From: an uncultured Coriobacteriaceae bacterium
GTDB taxonomy: Bacteria > Actinomycetota > Coriobacteriia > Coriobacteriales > Atopobiaceae
DNA: 64,000 bases
Direction: 5' to 3'
Assembly: GCA_902777325.1 (NCBI GenBank)
Contig: CACYTH010000007.1
Span: 1 to 64,000 of the forward strand
Both the position numbers and the translations under genes were made by a program. The notes under the pieces were generated by a model. The model did not search any database. It saw only the letters and a list, made by a program, of their open reading frames with translations, and had not been told where the DNA came from. Shown here piece after piece: positions 33,999-42,029 of the stretch; position 1 is the first letter of the stretch, and every line of letters begins with the position of its first letter.

Positions 33999-34399
33999 CG
34001 CATCCTCCGTCCTCTACATGCGGGCGACAACATTACATGACGCCCCCGACATTAATTGGCCGAGACAACCGCGCGCACGCCCCAGCGGCAACGCACAATT
34101 ACTGTCCAGACGCTCCCCTATCTTTGACTCGGCCCGCGTGAGAGAAGCGGAAGATGGCGAGCGAGTACGCCTGGATCGCGGACGTCGGCCTTATGCGCGC
34201 CCGTGCCGGAGACCCCGGCGCGGGCGGGGGCACGGGCCCATGACACGGGGTGTAAAACCTGCGGCCGCAAGCCAGCCCGCACAAGCGCCACCGTCTCCCC
34301 CACCATTTTTCAGCCACAGCCACAACCCCTGCTTCAACCCCTCCCCCAGCGGGTACGATGCACATAAAGGCACGACAGGCCACGGGCATCGGAGAGACC
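33999..34399. other. Gene-free stretch between divergent genes
   Basis: The 401 bp hold upstream sequences for the leftward hypothetical and rightward GTPase genes. A 9-bp inverted repeat GCCCGTGCC (34199-34207) / GGCACGGGC (34229-34237) is the only structure noticed. Short open frames here lack ribosome sites and look random. Confidence 0.5.
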
Positions 34400-35569
34400 A
34401 TGGTGTACGGCAACGTTTTGGTCATCGGCAACTCGGGCGTGGGCAAGTCCACGCTGGTCAACGCGGTCCTCGGCGAGGACAAGGCCGTCGTGGGCGGCGG
34501 CGACGCGGGCGTGACCAAAAGCATCGAGGTCTACGTGAGCAAGGACCCAAAGGTCCCCTTCCGCATCATCGACACCATCGGCTTCGAGCCCTCGCTGGTC
34601 AAGCGCCACAGCGCCATCAAGGCCGTGCGGGACTGGTCCAAGAGGGCCGCCAAGGACGGCGACCCCGACACCGACATCAACGTGATCTGGTTCTGCGTGG
34701 AGGGCACCTCAAAGAAGCTCTTCCCCGAGGCGATCCACGCGCTCTCCAAGGCCACCAAGCTGTGGGAAAGCGTGCCGGTGATTGTGGTCATCACCAAGTC
34801 GTACTCCCAGACCGAGCGCGCGGAAAACATGCGCACGGTGCAAAACGCCTTTGCCAGGCAGAAGAAGTACGCCAAGAACCTCAAGGAGATCATCCCCGTG
34901 GTGGCCGAGGCGTACCCCATCAACGAGACGACCCTCGTGCCGCCCGACGGCATCGACGAGCTCATCGACGCGACCAACCGCCACATGCCCGAGGGCAAGA
35001 CGGCCGCCGAGAAGGACGTGGCCGCCTTCAAGCTCAGGCGCAAGCGCGCGATGGCAAGGGGCCTTGTCGGCAGCTTTACCACCGCGGGGGCCACGGTGGG
35101 CGCCTTCCCCATGCCCGTCGCCGACGCGGTGGTGCTCTCCACGCTCGAGGCGACCGAGGTCAACGCGCTGGCCTCCATCTACGAGATCAAGCGCAACGAG
35201 GCGTCAAAGGAGTTCTTGAGCACCATCATCGAGATGGGAACCGTGAGCGTTGCCGCGCGGGCGGCGATCAGTGCCATCAAGGCCATACCCGGCGTGAACA
35301 TCGCAGCTAGCGTGCTGGACGCGGTGATTGCCGGGTCGTTTGTGGCGGTCATCGGGCAGGGATCGGCCTACGCTTTCGAGCAGGTGTACCTGGGCGAGAG
35401 GTCGCTCGACGACCTGGACTGGCTGCGCAAGCTGATTGAGTCCGAGCTGTCGCGCGGGTTTGTGGGCAAGGCCGCGGGCATCGTCAGGCAGGTCTCCGAG
35501 GGCGAGACGCCCAAGAACGTGAGTGGGCTGATAGCGGAGCTGGTCAAGGCTGCTTTTGTGAGGGAGTGA
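34400..35569 (+). CDS. P-loop GTPase with C-terminal DUF697-like domain
   Basis: The 389-residue protein has G1 LVIGNSGVGKSTLVNAVLG (residues 6-24), a switch II-type G3 IDTIGFEP, and a G4-like VVITKSYSQ where the usual NKxD/TKxD Asp is replaced by Tyr. The C-terminal half has hydrophobic Ala/Gly-rich segments (GSFTTAGATVGAFPMPVADAVVL, SVLDAVIAGSFVAVIG) like DUF697 (YcjF-type) domains and may bind membrane. I chose ATG 34400 with GGAG six bases upstream; ATG 34358 is in frame. Function is unknown; some relatives are stress or defence linked. Confidence 0.75.
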   Translation: MVYGNVLVIGNSGVGKSTLVNAVLGEDKAVVGGGDAGVTKSIEVYVSKDPKVPFRIIDTIGFEPSLVKRHSAIKAVRDWSKRAAKDGDPDTDINVIWFCVEGTSKKLFPEAIHALSKATKLWESVPVIVVITKSYSQTERAENMRTVQNAFARQKKYAKNLKEIIPVVAEAYPINETTLVPPDGIDELIDATNRHMPEGKTAAEKDVAAFKLRRKRAMARGLVGSFTTAGATVGAFPMPVADAVVLSTLEATEVNALASIYEIKRNEASKEFLSTIIEMGTVSVAARAAISAIKAIPGVNIAASVLDAVIAGSFVAVIGQGSAYAFEQVYLGERSLDDLDWLRKLIESELSRGFVGKAAGIVRQVSEGETPKNVSGLIAELVKAAFVRE

Positions 35570-35606: not shown

Positions 35607-36191
35607 TCACTCGGCTATGGGAAGCTCCTGCAGCCTGCACATACCCGCCCTACCCCATTCGCTGTTCGCGAGTACGCCGAACGCCTTGCGGATGAGCGCA
35701 GCGTGCTCCGGACTCGCGCTGATGGCGAAGTAGTCCCTGACGGAGCTCTTAGGGAAGGTGATGGCTGTGATGTCGCTTGCCTGAGGGACAGCCGCCGCGA
35801 GCTTTTGGCAGATCTCGTCGAAATAGACCTCAGGTTTCTTGCGGCTGCGGTGGTTGTATACCACCACACTCTGGCCCCTGGTTACGTAATCGACAAGCTC
35901 CTCGTAGAACGTGTACTTGGGAGCTTTGGCCGAGCGCTTGCCGACGGACTTCACGAGCAGGCCGTTGTCGGGATCGAGAAAGACGAGGTCGGTCCCCGCA
36001 AGCGCAGCGAGGGCACGGGCATGCCAAGCGGCACGGTCCTCAATAGGTACAACGTCGGAATAGTAAGTCGCTCCAAGAATCAGGCCTGCTTCCTCGAGCG
36101 CGCGAACAGAACGCTCGGCACTGCGCGAGATTGCGAGCAGCGCCTTCGCGAGCTCGGGATTAATTGCGGCCAGCCTCTCGGGTATCAGCAT
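35607..36191 (-). CDS. Hypothetical protein with DPDNG motif
   Basis: The 194-residue frame carries LVFLDPDNGLLVKSVGKRS, VVVYNHRSRKKPEVYFDEI and a C-terminal ITAITFPKSSVRDYFAIS block. It resembles a family of uncharacterised bacterial proteins with a conserved DPDNG, probably a Rossmann-like fold, but looks N-terminally short for it. ATG 36191 overlaps the stop of the preceding gene by 32 bp. It is last in a four-gene overlapping operon led by an XRE regulator. Confidence 0.6.
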   Translation of the reverse strand: MLIPERLAAINPELAKALLAISRSAERSVRALEEAGLILGATYYSDVVPIEDRAAWHARALAALAGTDLVFLDPDNGLLVKSVGKRSAKAPKYTFYEELVDYVTRGQSVVVYNHRSRKKPEVYFDEICQKLAAAVPQASDITAITFPKSSVRDYFAISASPEHAALIRKAFGVLANSEWGRAGMCRLQELPIAE

Positions 36192-36774
36192 TAGTTTCCG
36201 AATGCCGTTTTCCGAAGGGAAGCTTTGGTGTACTGCTTTCTCGCTTCTGCCTCTCCGCCTGCTCGCGAAGGTCTTTGAAAGCGCTCCTGGTGTCACATGG
36301 CAGGTGGTGACTTATTTCGTAAGCATGCCTTTCCCTCGCGTAGGAACAGATGGCCTCAAGATTGTCGTCACTGCTATCCTTGCCGTCCACGTATTTGCCA
36401 AAGACCTTGTAGAAGCGGACATCGTCTTGAGACATCTGCCTTTCGCCTTGTATCGTCCCAATTAGCATGCTTATGTAGTCAACGGCTGCATACTGCATAG
36501 CAAGAGCATCACGTATCTCACCGTCAAGTTTCGCCTTTTTAAACACCTGCCCCAGCTTGAGAGATTGGTATTGGACGATAAGGTTAGCGATTTCGACGTT
36601 CTGCTTTTCGACCGTAGCCTCAAGCCCATCGGCTTTCCGCTCAAGCTTCCTCACACGTTTTTTAAGCTTGTTTACTTCGGGCTGGCGCAGGAACAGACCG
36701 ACAACAATCCCTCCCGCAGCTCCAACAGCACCAGCAACCGCAGCTACCGCTTTATTCTCCATCCATTCCTCCAA
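36160..36774 (-). CDS. Hypothetical membrane-anchored coiled-coil protein
   Basis: The 204-residue protein has one Gly/Ala-rich membrane helix near the N-terminus (VAAVAGAVGAAGGIVVGLFL), then a heptad-rich coiled coil (VNKLKKRVRKLERKADGLEATVEKQNVEI, about residues 34-75). A soluble helical tail rich in Asp and Lys follows. Its start overlaps the upstream gene by 23 bp and its end overlaps the DPDNG gene, so all are translated in series. Function is not recognised. Confidence 0.65.
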   Translation of the reverse strand: MEEWMENKAVAAVAGAVGAAGGIVVGLFLRQPEVNKLKKRVRKLERKADGLEATVEKQNVEIANLIVQYQSLKLGQVFKKAKLDGEIRDALAMQYAAVDYISMLIGTIQGERQMSQDDVRFYKVFGKYVDGKDSSDDNLEAICSYARERHAYEISHHLPCDTRSAFKDLREQAERQKRESSTPKLPFGKRHSETNADTREAGRN

Positions 36775-37795
36775 GTAGCCAGTCTATGTCATCGTGAGGG
36801 ATGAGCGCTGATATACGTTCATAGTCAGCCATCACCTTGTCAGCTCGCTCTATGAGTCGATCGGCCTCTTTGACAACTCGATTCGTATCTCTATTACTCG
36901 CCACAAGCAGAGCTACGGATTCCTTCGCCATCGCAAGTCCCAGAGGATAGTTGATGTACGGAATGCCATTTTGCCTGATGGCTCCAGCGATGGCCTGTGA
37001 GAAAAAGCTCATGGTGTAGGCCAAGGCTCTCACTTGCGCAATCCTAATCTCATCAGTAATGCCTCTGAGCTGAAAGTATGCACTCGTAATTGCAGTGGCT
37101 GCCATTCCGCCAGCGATGTCCTGTGCACGAATAGTCAGCAGGTGCTCGTAAATCGACTCGGCACTGAGCTTGTTTCCGTAGCCCTCTTTTGACAGCTCTT
37201 GTACCAGATCGATCATGTAATTCCATGGTCTACCTTTGTCGTTTGTATAGTCGAAACGCGAAGACCCGGGAAGGGGCAGTCCTTGCTTTGAGCAGGTGTC
37301 GGCAATGAGGTGCCTTACTACCTGTACGATTCCATACAAGCCACGTTGATCGAACATGAGGTAAAACGGGTTGTCATTCACTTCGGCGCCAAAGCTCAGG
37401 GGATCATGACCATAGAAAAGACGATGGAATACTCGCCATGGATCGTCGCCGTCACGCGTGCTGAAGACGTCCATATAGTCACCCTTATGGTGAAGGAGTC
37501 TTCCTAGAACCACTTGAAGGAAGTCGTAGTTGCCCGACTGTTCGCTCGCCGCGTCGTGCACCTCTGCCAACCAACTGCCCAGGTCTTCGCTGGTGCTTAT
37601 GGAAACGCTAGCGAAAGATGAGACCATGCCTACGAGCAAATCCCATCCATCCATATCCGACTCGATGCGGCTAAAGCCGTTCTCGATATCTACAGTTGCA
37701 AGAGCACTCCGTTCTTCGCGAGCGATAGCGTCCTCTACGAGCACGATAGAGTTTTTGTAAGCATCTTCAGCCGAGCTCTCATTCGCTTCGCTCAT
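36752..37795 (-). CDS. Hypothetical protein of the XRE operon
   Basis: About 347 residues, largely helical, with no recognised motif. It has a possible hydrophobic pair of helices (DIAGGMAATAITSAYFQL and ALAYTMSFFSQAIAGAIRQNGIPYINYPLGLAM). GC is lower than in core genes. ATG 37795 overlaps the regulator gene by 17 bp and has a G-rich ribosome site; ATG 37834 is also possible. The overlap on both sides shows coupled translation with its neighbours, implying joint action. Confidence 0.65.
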   Translation of the reverse strand: MSEANESSAEDAYKNSIVLVEDAIAREERSALATVDIENGFSRIESDMDGWDLLVGMVSSFASVSISTSEDLGSWLAEVHDAASEQSGNYDFLQVVLGRLLHHKGDYMDVFSTRDGDDPWRVFHRLFYGHDPLSFGAEVNDNPFYLMFDQRGLYGIVQVVRHLIADTCSKQGLPLPGSSRFDYTNDKGRPWNYMIDLVQELSKEGYGNKLSAESIYEHLLTIRAQDIAGGMAATAITSAYFQLRGITDEIRIAQVRALAYTMSFFSQAIAGAIRQNGIPYINYPLGLAMAKESVALLVASNRDTNRVVKEADRLIERADKVMADYERISALIPHDDIDWLLGGMDGE

Positions 37796-38333
37796 CGCGC
37801 CCCCCGTCTGAACCCTGTTTTCCGCTGCCGCCATTACGCGTCGATTTTCCCATCGTGTTCATTGCCACCGCCACCCCCACCGGAGCTAGCAGCGGACCTC
37901 CTGAGAGCAAGGTCATCATTGCCCCCGCAAGTGCCCCGGCCATCAGGGGCCCTCTTGCCAGGCTGACCAAGGGCACCTTGCCACCATCCTGCGGAACATC
38001 TGTCGTCAACATCGATGTGGCCACACTGAGCGAATCCATCGTTCCTTCGGACTCAACCTCCTCGTCGTCTTCAATCGGGTCATCAACCAATGCAGTAATC
38101 ACCTTCGCGAGCGCCTGGTTCTCACTCGCTGCAATCTCGATGTTGAGCACGTACCTCAGGGCGATGTACTGCGTCTTGGTCAAAGGCGTCTTCCCACGCT
38201 CAAGATTGCTTATAGTCTGACGCGTCACCCCAATCTCATCCGCCAGCTGCTGGGCGCTCCATCCAGCCACCTTACGTATGGTGGCAAGGTTCTCCTGCAT
38301 CCGCCGGATTCTTGCCTCGTCAGATGTGTCCAT
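37779..38333 (-). CDS. XRE-family regulator with C-terminal membrane segment
   Basis: The 184-residue protein has an HTH_3 domain at about residues 12-68 (MQENLATIRKVAGWSAQQLADEIG, VTRQTISNLERGKTPLTKTQYIAL) and an acidic linker. A hydrophobic Gly/Ala-rich stretch (LMAGALAGAMMTLLSGGPLLAPVGVAVAM) looks like a membrane hairpin and precedes a Gly/Ser/Arg tail. A DNA-binding protein tied to the membrane suggests signal-coupled derepression. ATG 38333 has GGGGAGG upstream. It heads the overlapping operon and faces an operator with divergent promoters. Confidence 0.8.
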   Translation of the reverse strand: MDTSDEARIRRMQENLATIRKVAGWSAQQLADEIGVTRQTISNLERGKTPLTKTQYIALRYVLNIEIAASENQALAKVITALVDDPIEDDEEVESEGTMDSLSVATSMLTTDVPQDGGKVPLVSLARGPLMAGALAGAMMTLLSGGPLLAPVGVAVAMNTMGKSTRNGGSGKQGSDGGRDERSE

Positions 38334-38381
38334 GCGCTTCACCTCCCCAGTTGTCGTTCCTGATGTATAGTAGCCCACATA

Positions 38382-38428
38382 TTGTCAAAAAGCAAATTAT
38401 TTGACAAATGGAAAACGATGTGCATAAT
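38382..38428. promoter_or_regulatory. XRE operator with divergent promoters
   Basis: TTGTCAAA (38382-38389) and TTTGACAA (38400-38407) form a perfect 8-bp dyad. Rightward, TTGACA (38401-38406) with CATAAT 16 bases on (38423-38428) makes a promoter for the small acidic gene. Leftward, TTGCTT-N17-TACTAT makes a promoter for the XRE operon. A repressor on the dyad would cover both. Confidence 0.75.
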
Positions 38429-38538
38429 TGCAGGCAGTTGAAAACCGAAGAATGATTAACACGGCCAGTGAGGAAAGGAGCCTATTGAGATAACAGAGAT
38501 GAGGCGATGAATGAACCCAGACAGAAAGAGGTGTAGGT

Positions 38539-38751
38539 ATGACCAAGTACAAGGTTGTCATGCATTACCCGGACGGCGAGGACGACGAGTACGACGAGAC
38601 CTTTGACAGCTACGAGGAGGCTGAGGACCATGGACGCTACCTTTCGTCGTGCTATGACCTCGGCGGTGAGATCCTGAACATGTCAAATCCCGGCGACTAT
38701 CCTTACGACGAGAACGACGAAGGCGCTAGCTACGAGGTCATTGAAGGCTAA
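38539..38751 (+). CDS. Small acidic protein
   Basis: The 70-residue product is very acidic (DGEDDEYDETFDSYEEAEDHG, DYPYDENDEGASYEVIEG), with few basic residues and aromatic Tyr spread along it. It is divergent from the XRE operon, shares its operator, and is followed by a strong terminator. It could be a DNA mimic or a regulator partner, but there is no recognised family. ATG 38539 follows an AGAGGTGTAGGT site. Confidence 0.65.
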   Translation: MTKYKVVMHYPDGEDDEYDETFDSYEEAEDHGRYLSSCYDLGGEILNMSNPGDYPYDENDEGASYEVIEG

Positions 38752-38865
38752 CGACGCAAGGCGGCGTAGCTGCTTATATCAAATATGACAACTAGCACAG
38801 CATTGGAAGTATTTCATCAATTAAGAAATAAACAAATCACGTTGGCCCGCATCGGAAGGCCAAGC

Positions 38866-38910
38866 ATCCTGAGACGCTCAGCAAGGGCGTCTCAGGATTG
38901 TTCTATCTAG
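38866..38910 (+). terminator. Rho-independent terminator
   Basis: A 12-bp perfect stem ATCCTGAGACGC (38866-38877) / GCGTCTCAGGAT (38887-38898), 9-base loop, is followed by TGTTCTATCT. It ends the small acidic gene, 114 bp after its stop. The rest of 38752-38996 shows nothing else. Confidence 0.85.
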
Positions 38911-38996: not shown

Positions 38997-39746
38997 TCAC
39001 TCTGAATAGATTCGGACAATAGAACACAGTTCTTCGAGTGTTTTGATACAAAACGTTACCTGTCCGTCGCTTTTTGGTACAGCATTGCCCTCTTCATCGT
39101 GCGCAGAGCTGTTACAGTGTTCCTTGGCACTATATAGCTTCTCCAACATTTCAGAATCAAGGTAACCCGCACACTCATCAATTAAGAACGCGAGTTTCTC
39201 ACGTTCACCTTTCCTGCCCATGTTGTGCGCATAGATACATTTCATACCACGTTCAAGTCCTTTTCTGACTTGTATGAGCGCATAAACGTAGGCATCCTTA
39301 GAACCATTCCGGCCATTTCTTCGCTGCTCCTTGGCCTCACGCACGTAACCTTCGATTCTTTGTACAGACTGTTCGTAATAAGACCTGTCGTTCCCCGCCC
39401 GATCGTATCCATCGATATTGAACCCGTCGCGCGCATAGCCAGCCCTGTCATAGCCTTCGCGATCGAATCCGTTTTTGTCAAATCCTTGTCGGTTGTATCC
39501 TTCAACGTCATACCCTCTTCGATCAAAACCCCTACGGTCAAAACCTTCTCGATTGAAGCCCTCTCGATTGAAGCCTTCTCGGTCATATCCCTCACGGTCA
39601 AATCCCTTACCATTAAAACCGTCCGACCCGAAATGAAGTCTGTCGTAGAGTTCTGAAGCAGCGGAGCCTATGGCCGCTCCACCCAGTGCAATAGCCGCAT
39701 AAACAAAAAAGGGCATACCAAATCTTATCCTTCCTGCCAAAGACAT
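38997..39746 (-). CDS. Membrane protein with 16 pentad repeats and HEPN-like C-terminus
   Basis: The 249-residue protein has an N-terminal membrane helix (FGMPFFVYAAIALGGAAIGSAASEL). Sixteen consecutive five-residue units of the form G-[F/Y]-[D/N]-x-x follow at residues 43-122 (for example GFDRE, GYDRE, GFNRE, GYNRQ). A helical C-terminal domain (about 126-249) with RKGLERGMKCIYAHN and HCNSSAHDEEGN recalls HEPN/DUF4145-type domains. The repeat is not the classical A(D/N)LxX pentapeptide fold. Function is unknown; it lies at the left end of the defence cluster. ATG 39746 has a weak ribosome site. Confidence 0.7.
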   Translation of the reverse strand: MSLAGRIRFGMPFFVYAAIALGGAAIGSAASELYDRLHFGSDGFNGKGFDREGYDREGFNREGFNREGFDRRGFDRRGYDVEGYNRQGFDKNGFDREGYDRAGYARDGFNIDGYDRAGNDRSYYEQSVQRIEGYVREAKEQRRNGRNGSKDAYVYALIQVRKGLERGMKCIYAHNMGRKGEREKLAFLIDECAGYLDSEMLEKLYSAKEHCNSSAHDEEGNAVPKSDGQVTFCIKTLEELCSIVRIYSE

Positions 39747-40880: not shown

Positions 40881-42029
40881 CTAGATTCGTCCCAACCTGA
40901 CCTGCAGCGCCAGCTCGTCCAGCAGCTCGCGCCAACCTGCGATGGGCAGCCTGCAGCCCATGTTGAGGTGCATGGACTCGTCGATGCCGCCAATGGACGC
41001 ATCGACCTTCCTGAGGACGTCGCGCGTCCCGTGCCAGTGCGGAACATGCTGCGCCACAATGGCCGCATACATGAGTGCTGCGGGGCGTGTGGAGGGCACG
41101 CAGGCGAGCTCGAGGAGGCTCATCTGGCAGACATGAGAGTCAGCCAGGCGGTCCATGGGCCATTCGAGCCTGCCATCGATGCTTGACAGCGTCCTCAGCT
41201 CGGAGCGGACTTCCATGAGCGTGATGCCTAGCAGGTTCCTTCCGTGCCACTTGCCCGGGTCGGCAGAATCGGGGTCGTCTTTCCCGATGCCGATGCCCCA
41301 CACCGTGTCCTTTGGCGACGCCTCCGCGAGCACGGCGGAGCCGGTCGAGAGCAGGTCGTTCATCAGCCGCTCGTTCTGGGCGAACTTCTGCCTGAGGCCG
41401 ACCATCATGAGCGGCACTCGCGCCTCGTTCCATGTCGCGTCGCTGTAGGGCTTCACCTGCTTGCCCAGTGCCTTCGCAGCAGCGGGGCTCGTGGTCTCCA
41501 AGACCCTGCCAGCCGTGTCCCAGTCGCGGAAGGCTGCAGCCTTCTGCCACATCATCCAGTGCTCGCTCGTGGGGAACAGGTCGCCAGCGAAACGGAAACC
41601 AGAGTCATGCCAGTTGCTGAGGTAGCCGTCCTTTTCGTACTCGTGGTAGAAGGTGACGACCTTTGGCCGATCCCACGTGCCGTCAAGTTCGGCAAGTCGC
41701 CTTAGCACTCGCAGGAGATAGCCGTCTTCCAGCGAGCCCATAAGTGACCCCTCGCACATGTGGTCAGCCCGGAGCACGAAGGTGAGCAGTGCGACGGTCG
41801 CTTTAAGGTCCAGCGACTCGACGTTCGCGTGCCACAGCTTCTCGCCAGCAATGCCATATCCTTCGAGCGTCGCGAAGTAGTCATGGTCGGTGATGTCCGG
41901 CTCGTAGCAGGCTGGCATGAACTCGCCGTAGAGTACGTCGCCGACCCGCTCAGCCGTGGCTTCCTCGAGGGCGGTCAGGAACCTCGTGACGTTTTCGTAT
42001 CTTGCGGCTGGTCTCGACCCAAGCATCAT
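40881..42029 (-). CDS. DUF6508-like plus NADAR-domain protein
   Basis: The 382-residue protein has an N-terminal region (about 10-120) resembling DUF6508 (LLTFVLRADHMCEGSLMGSLEDGYLLRVLRRL in part). A NADAR domain follows at about 127-280: YLSNWHDSGFRFAGDLFPTSEHWMMWQKA, PAAAKALGKQV, KFAQNERLMNDLLSTG, SPKDTVWGIGIG and WHGRNLLGITLMEVR. NADAR proteins act on ADP-ribose derivatives; some remove ADP-ribose from guanine in DNA as antitoxins. A further 100-residue tail is unassigned. It starts directly after the DUF262 stop with a GGGGAGGAG site, so the pair is tightly coupled. Confidence 0.82.
   Translation of the reverse strand: MMLGSRPAARYENVTRFLTALEEATAERVGDVLYGEFMPACYEPDITDHDYFATLEGYGIAGEKLWHANVESLDLKATVALLTFVLRADHMCEGSLMGSLEDGYLLRVLRRLAELDGTWDRPKVVTFYHEYEKDGYLSNWHDSGFRFAGDLFPTSEHWMMWQKAAAFRDWDTAGRVLETTSPAAAKALGKQVKPYSDATWNEARVPLMMVGLRQKFAQNERLMNDLLSTGSAVLAEASPKDTVWGIGIGKDDPDSADPGKWHGRNLLGITLMEVRSELRTLSSIDGRLEWPMDRLADSHVCQMSLLELACVPSTRPAALMYAAIVAQHVPHWHGTRDVLRKVDASIGGIDESMHLNMGCRLPIAGWRELLDELALQVRLGRI

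Follow-up and report, generated by a model that had tools for sequence, protein, structure and literature searches.

What does a compact operon led by an XRE-type repressor, with a small acidic gene transcribed away from it, do in an uncultured Coriobacteriaceae bacterium, and is it a single unit? The operon lies in a 64,000-nucleotide stretch of DNA (assembly GCA_902777325.1, contig CACYTH010000007.1, positions 1 to 64,000), hereafter called the window. It comprises four leftward open reading frames (ORFs), g1 to g4, spanning 38333-35607 and encoding 184, 347, 200 and 194 amino acids (aa), respectively. A first-pass annotation had read the whole set as one regulated module, maybe for defence or mobile-element control. 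We found that the four ORFs and the acidic gene do not form one unit. A regulated module is supported for g1, g2 and g3; g4 lies outside it, and so, probably, does the acidic gene. We lean, by a modest degree, towards reading g1-g2-g3 as an anti-phage module gained by horizontal transfer, with a distant sequence relationship to Bunzi. Bunzi is reportedly an anti-phage system made up of BnzA and BnzB, described by Millman and co-workers in 2022. The three genes are as follows; genomes (G) and loci (L) are given by our own handles.

37779..38333, minus strand: g1, XRE/Cro-type helix-turn-helix (HTH) regulator of 184 aa, first gene of the operon (HTH_3, E 8e-10)
36752..37795, minus strand: g2, BnzB-like protein of 347 aa (46% relative in G112, hhalign match to BnzB, motifs)
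36160..36762, minus strand: g3, 200 aa, made up of a transmembrane segment (TM), a coiled coil and a C-terminal helical region; its relatives follow g2

The four overlapping leftward ORFs of the first-pass annotation are present in the sequence. The overlaps of 17 bp for g1/g2 (g2 starting at ATG 37795) and 32 bp for g3/g4 hold. The 23 bp given for g2/g3 is obtained only with TTG 36774 as the start of g3, and it becomes 11 bp with ATG 36762, which is most probably the start. g1 likely starts at ATG 38333, with a good Shine-Dalgarno sequence, rather than at GTG 38378. The GC content was 0.547 for the operon, 0.51 for g2/g3 and 0.667 for the left flank.

The g2-g3 pair and its link to BnzB

Judged by hhalign, decoy-controlled HMMER, tblastn and ordered motifs, g2 is a remote homologue of BnzB, with homology taken at any depth. 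The motif HR..GHD occurred in all 18 BnzB proteins and in six of the seven g2-family proteins, the seventh being a fragment. A second motif, H..[AS]D...[QM]GLPxP, was present in 18/18 BnzB and 7/7 g2-family proteins and in none of 18,000 shuffled sequences. The two motifs stand in the same order in both families; in g2 itself they are HRLFYGHD (residues 124-131) and HLIADTCSKQGLPLP (residues 162-176). Comparison of the g2 family with BnzB by hhalign gave 85% with six BnzB rows and 92% (E 6.5e-7) with 18 rows, the E-values being those of single comparisons. A BnzB hidden Markov model (HMM) ranked all seven g2-family members above ~210 decoys, and tblastn aligned g2 with the BnzB of L093 at 24.5% across 220 aa (E 3e-4, the set searched being small).

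The neighbourhood of g1 relatives leads to the same family. Among 50,697 phages, a g1 relative was found in one record only, Acutalibacteraceae phage NatCom_11578, where the operon runs XRE, Gly-zipper protein, TM-coil protein and a 453-aa protein. PADLOC identified the 453-aa protein as BnzB (E 4.7e-64) and its partner weakly as BnzA. Relatives of this BnzB were found in 493 plasmid records (436 conjugative) and three phage records; the BnzB lying three genes past the XRE gene is one of only three in the phage collection. In L089, a g1-type XRE gene lies directly 5′ of BnzA-like and BnzB genes.

g2 and g3 travel together. A class-wide search with g2 matched 10 of 398 genomes, with six clear g2 genes and one degraded fragment (in G291); the relative in G112 is 46% identical. 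Six genomes have an intact g2; they belong to two bacterial families, and in each of them a g3 homologue directly follows g2. The g3 relatives in the five genomes other than that of the window are 31-36% identical and lie immediately 3′ of g2. Co-occurrence, proposed earlier as a check on the whole set, thus held for g2 with g3 and failed for g4 and the acidic gene. None of g1, g4 and the acidic ORF was conserved alongside the pair. The pair is rare within the class and sits on mobile or defence islands. It adjoins tRNA-Thr and a type IIG restriction-modification (R-M) gene in G112 and tRNA-Asp in G205, and in G354 a type III methyltransferase gene is ~3 kb away. In these three genomes it is present without any HTH leader. 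In G250 and G341 it lies behind a MerR-like HTH gene in regions bearing ParA/ParB. The surroundings in the window (Mrr, NADAR, DUF262, McrBC and type I R-M genes) are those of a defence island.

The earlier description of the third gene as a membrane-anchored coiled coil is borne out. g3 has one N-terminal TM (residues 4-26, Kyte-Doolittle 2.15) followed by a coiled coil, and its C-terminal part is helical. The TM is Gly-rich, and two GxxxG motifs were found in all six g3 proteins. Neither g2 nor g4 could be assigned to a family with Pfam, PHROGs, NCBIfam or PADLOC, and the matches of g3 in these libraries were all of coiled-coil type. Profile searches of genome and viral contigs with g2, g3 and g4 yielded no matches, nor did tblastn of g2 against plasmids and phages; a phylum-wide g2 search revealed no members beyond those already known in the same class. 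The locus ties Bunzi to a far more diverged family, which current defence libraries miss. The residues kept in both families (HR..GHD, H..[AS]D and GLPxP) are candidate functional sites.

Comparison with Bunzi and other BnzB loci

Like Bunzi, the window locus has a protein with both BnzB motifs and profile-level homology to BnzB, a membrane-type partner adjacent to it and a place in a defence island, and XRE genes of the g1 family lead some BnzB operons. The differences are that g2 is ~100 aa shorter and unmatched by the BnzB model, that g3, which lies downstream, has no sequence relationship to BnzA, and that there is no TerB-like partner. A TerB domain is listed for Bunzi in a review table (PMC10952713).

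Other BnzB loci offer closer parallels in layout. On phages and plasmids (L073, L080, L082 and L089) and on Enterobacteriaceae plasmids (L077 and L078), one or more glycine-rich membrane proteins adjoin BnzB in the combination Gly-zipper, TM-coil and BnzB, and L073 and L089 also have an XRE leader with a hydrophobic tail. The window differs in having only g3 (TM and coil), without the ~180-aa Gly-zipper protein. In G281 (L123), a 112-aa TM-coil protein is the sole adjacent partner, like g3; however, its BnzB is a true one (PADLOC 4e-63), and the partner is shorter and lies upstream. Within the class, the partners of BnzB comprised a Gly-zipper protein (L111-L121), the small TM-coil protein of L123 and ~335-345-aa proteins (L125-L129) whose TerB likeness was judged by eye and for which PADLOC gave PDC-M09A and in one case BnzA. 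g3 takes the place that such Gly-zipper, TM-coil or TerB-like partners have at BnzB loci and is plausibly another type of BnzB partner.

BnzB modules also occur in defence contexts. In the same genus as the window, BnzB with a 334-aa partner lies next to McrBC, and the module of the IMG/VR locus L093 (whose BnzB frame contains one in-frame TAG) adjoins McrBC too. Two other IMG/VR loci, L082 and L084, have BnzB modules with BrxC/truncated PglX on one side and recombinase or transposase genes on the other; these modules look like Bunzi-like cargo that interrupts BREX loci. A Salmonella survey found Bunzi often on IncHI1 plasmids (PMC11305592). The BnzB profile matched 50 of the 398 class genomes, some of the matches being weak and in much longer proteins. 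Such matches were also seen in open frames of 614-886 aa, possibly a larger BnzB relative.

Several results weigh against the reading of g1-g2-g3 as a relative of Bunzi. The PADLOC BnzB model matched none of the seven g2-family members at E<=10, as against 1e-53 to 1e-123 for clear BnzB relatives, and plain HMMER cross-scores between g2 and BnzB were weak. g3 showed no homology to the Gly-zipper partners or to the TM-coil protein of L073, so a BnzA-type partner was not found, and g3 lies after g2, not before it. Weak matches of g3 to BnzB/LmuB look like coiled coil. Outside the window, none of the five g2-g3 loci has g1, and in two of them a different HTH gene stands in its place. An AF2 model of g2 built with BnzB rows reached a predicted local distance difference test score (pLDDT) of only 46; it is unusable and not a structural confirmation. 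The BnzB of L080 was modelled well (pLDDT 84) and is mostly helical, and it had no convincing match in Foldseek PDB, BFVD or VIA-align, the best being Z 5.2 over 97 residues to helical membrane proteins; because of this, we claim no fold for BnzB. Finally, the membrane mechanism outlined below, an XRE-controlled, membrane-anchored g3-g2 effector, is one that we infer by analogy, and a 2026 review gives the mechanism of Bunzi as unknown (PMC12926258).

Tests with the BnzB model and for a BnzA-type partner both came out negative, so by the PADLOC definition the g1-g3 locus is not a member of Bunzi; from its sequences it is best read as a diverged Bunzi-like variant. It may well work like Bunzi.

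The g1 regulator and its candidate operator

g1 had been described as an XRE protein with a membrane-like C-terminus, and both parts are confirmed. Its HTH_3 domain scored 39 bits against a curated cut-off of 23, which places it in the XRE/Cro-C1 group. An acidic linker follows, and then a Gly/Ala-rich hydrophobic C-terminal tail with a hydrophobic stretch at residues 138-158. Relatives with Gly/Ala-rich tails are the first genes of small operons in L065, L066, L070, L071, L073 and L089. Their common features are the HTH and the tail, and they lead small operons on plasmids and chromosomes alike. The HTH leader with a Gly/Ala-rich tail is suggested as a regulator of Bunzi-like operons. At L093:4952-5440, a MerR-like HTH protein with a Gly/Ala-rich hydrophobic tail precedes Gly-zipper, BnzB and McrBC genes, in parallel with the XRE-tail leader.

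The candidate operator of g1 is the following feature.

38382..38407, no strand: dyad TTGTCAAA-10-TTTGACAA, candidate operator for g1; it overlaps the promoters of both directions

The perfect 8-bp dyad of the first-pass annotation is thus real; it was placed between the divergent promoters, and it overlaps both instead. Two promoter boxes are overlapped: the -35 box (38401-38406) of the strong rightward promoter (11/12), and the -10 box (38401-38396) of a weaker leftward promoter (9/12). Dyads of the TTGAC/GTCAA type were found over promoters in four of the eight XRE relatives examined (the window, L070, L073 and L089). The shuffle frequency was <0.001 for each of these four loci, with the reservation that part of each TTGAC dyad comes free because TTGACA is also the -35 consensus. 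We also considered both dyad arms as -35 boxes; this was dropped, because 13 nt rather than ~17 separate the leftward arm from TATACA. Autoregulation of g1 through the dyad is likely.

If the module acts in defence, g1 would bind the TTGAC dyad and thereby repress the operon that it leads; its hydrophobic tail may touch the membrane or g3, coupling repression to an infection cue. A phage that perturbs the cell would change the state of g2, held at the membrane by g3. The Gly-zipper membrane component might then be gated or oligomerise, so that the infected cell, or the infection itself, would be stopped at the envelope. A wider proposal is rather doubtful: that the window belongs to a separate Bunzi-related immunity lineage, seen in only one bacterial class so far, whose one partner is small and combines a Gly-rich TM with a coiled coil, and whose control lies with a membrane-coupled sensor-repressor bearing a Gly/Ala-rich hydrophobic tail. 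The same HTH-plus-tail leader would then recur among BnzB operons, as an XRE protein in the window, L073 and L089 and as a MerR-like one in L093.

Neighbouring genes and competing explanations

Downstream and upstream of the three genes lie the following features.

35607..36191, minus strand: g4, 5′-truncated member of a ~245-aa family with known full-length relatives
36189..36191, no strand: g3/g4 recombination or deletion junction (DNA alignment to the intact relative L039)
38539..38751, plus strand: acidic 70-aa protein, with its own promoter at 38401-38428
38866..38898, plus strand: intrinsic terminator of the acidic gene, with a 12-bp perfect stem

g4 carries the DPDNG motif noticed earlier. 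Its family, ~245 aa long, has the signature MQ[DN]RY.GDIGD...NWYL...DPDNGL; relatives occur in 16 of 298 class genomes, and a Lacticaseibacillus plasmid also carries the family. All full-length relatives have an N-terminal block, MQ[DN]RY.GDIGD..K..LLR.L...GLSIG.NWYL. The window g4 comprises the 3′ three-quarters: it starts at about residue 50 of the relatives, without the ~49 N-terminal residues and the GDIGD/NWYL block, so it is not a complete member. The DNA match to its closest relative (L039, intact, 67% protein identity) begins sharply at 36189: its first ten bases are identical, and no similarity precedes them. Therefore, the last ~10 codons of g3, which are g4-derived DNA, and the 'ATG' of g4 are products of a deletion junction. 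On this alignment, the 32-bp g3/g4 overlap is a deletion scar, and the putative g4 ATG spans the junction. Given the N-terminal loss and the abrupt junction, the four genes did not evolve together as one operon, and g4 is best described from its sequence as a truncated remnant of another family, outside the module.

Some observations on the g4 family and its surroundings are added here. At L039:7665-9245 (G133, same genus), an in-frame fusion joins it with a NADAR domain in a 526-aa protein; in the window, the NADAR gene is separate (40881-42029), 5 kb from g4. In L041, L045, L046, L047 and L048, g4-family genes often adjoin a shared ORF (MGANGLDEYWVPEHVKDYLRKLGF...) of phage-structural-like appearance, and they may be prophage cargo. 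Convergent with g4 in the window (34358-35569) is a GTPase gene with DUF697 and a weak LeoBC match (E 1e-6).

The divergent 70-residue protein is very acidic (21 D/E, 3 K/R) and has a strong terminator, as the first-pass annotation stated. That annotation went on to propose a DNA mimic or antirepressor, here one acting on g1, and this we regard as very improbable. The acidity and divergent transcription across the dyad are all that speaks for it, and the intergenic region is the sole thing that the acidic ORF and g1 share. Relatives 47-58% identical were found in G056, G041, a Paraclostridium plasmid and IMG/VR L069, none with g1-g3; their neighbours, which are not shared, are SPFH/zinc-ribbon genes, HipBA or, on the plasmid, unrelated genes. 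The acidic ORF is probably an unrelated small gene.

Three other explanations of g1-g3 have to be set against defence. The module might serve a mobile element, through entry or superinfection exclusion or through stabilisation of a phage or an integrative and conjugative element, with g1 as the element repressor and g2-g3 as a membrane exclusion pair. Exclusion proteins are typically membrane-bound, BnzB relatives are abundant on conjugative plasmids (436 among the 493 plasmid records) and occur in phages, and the pairs of G250 and G341 lie in ParA/ParB-bearing regions. However, PADLOC classes BnzB as a defence protein, BnzB modules and g2-g3 pairs are placed in BREX loci and R-M islands, and no conjugation genes lie next to the operon in the window; we consider this explanation unlikely. 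A toxin-antitoxin-like unit, with g1 as XRE antitoxin or repressor and g2-g3 as membrane toxin, would fit the XRE leader, the short overlapping operon and the weak HipB/Y4mF-type antitoxin matches of g1. It is made improbable by the persistence of g2-g3 without any HTH leader in three genomes and by the unrelated operons that g1 relatives lead, and the antitoxin matches are explained by a generic HTH.

The sharp deletion junction, the truncated g4 and the degraded g2 of G291 could also point to a decaying locus, a recombination-broken operon without present function. We give this a low probability, since the frames of g1-g3 are open over their full length and keep their conserved motifs intact. 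An anti-phage role for g1-g3 thus remains the reading we prefer.

Beyond the acidic gene, at 38997-39746, the window encodes a protein that has a membrane segment at its N-terminus and carries many G[FY][DN]R.G repeats. An operon led by a g1-type XRE gene includes a 38% relative of this protein (L065:4622-5365), whose C-terminal end is a HEPN domain (E 2.8e-5).

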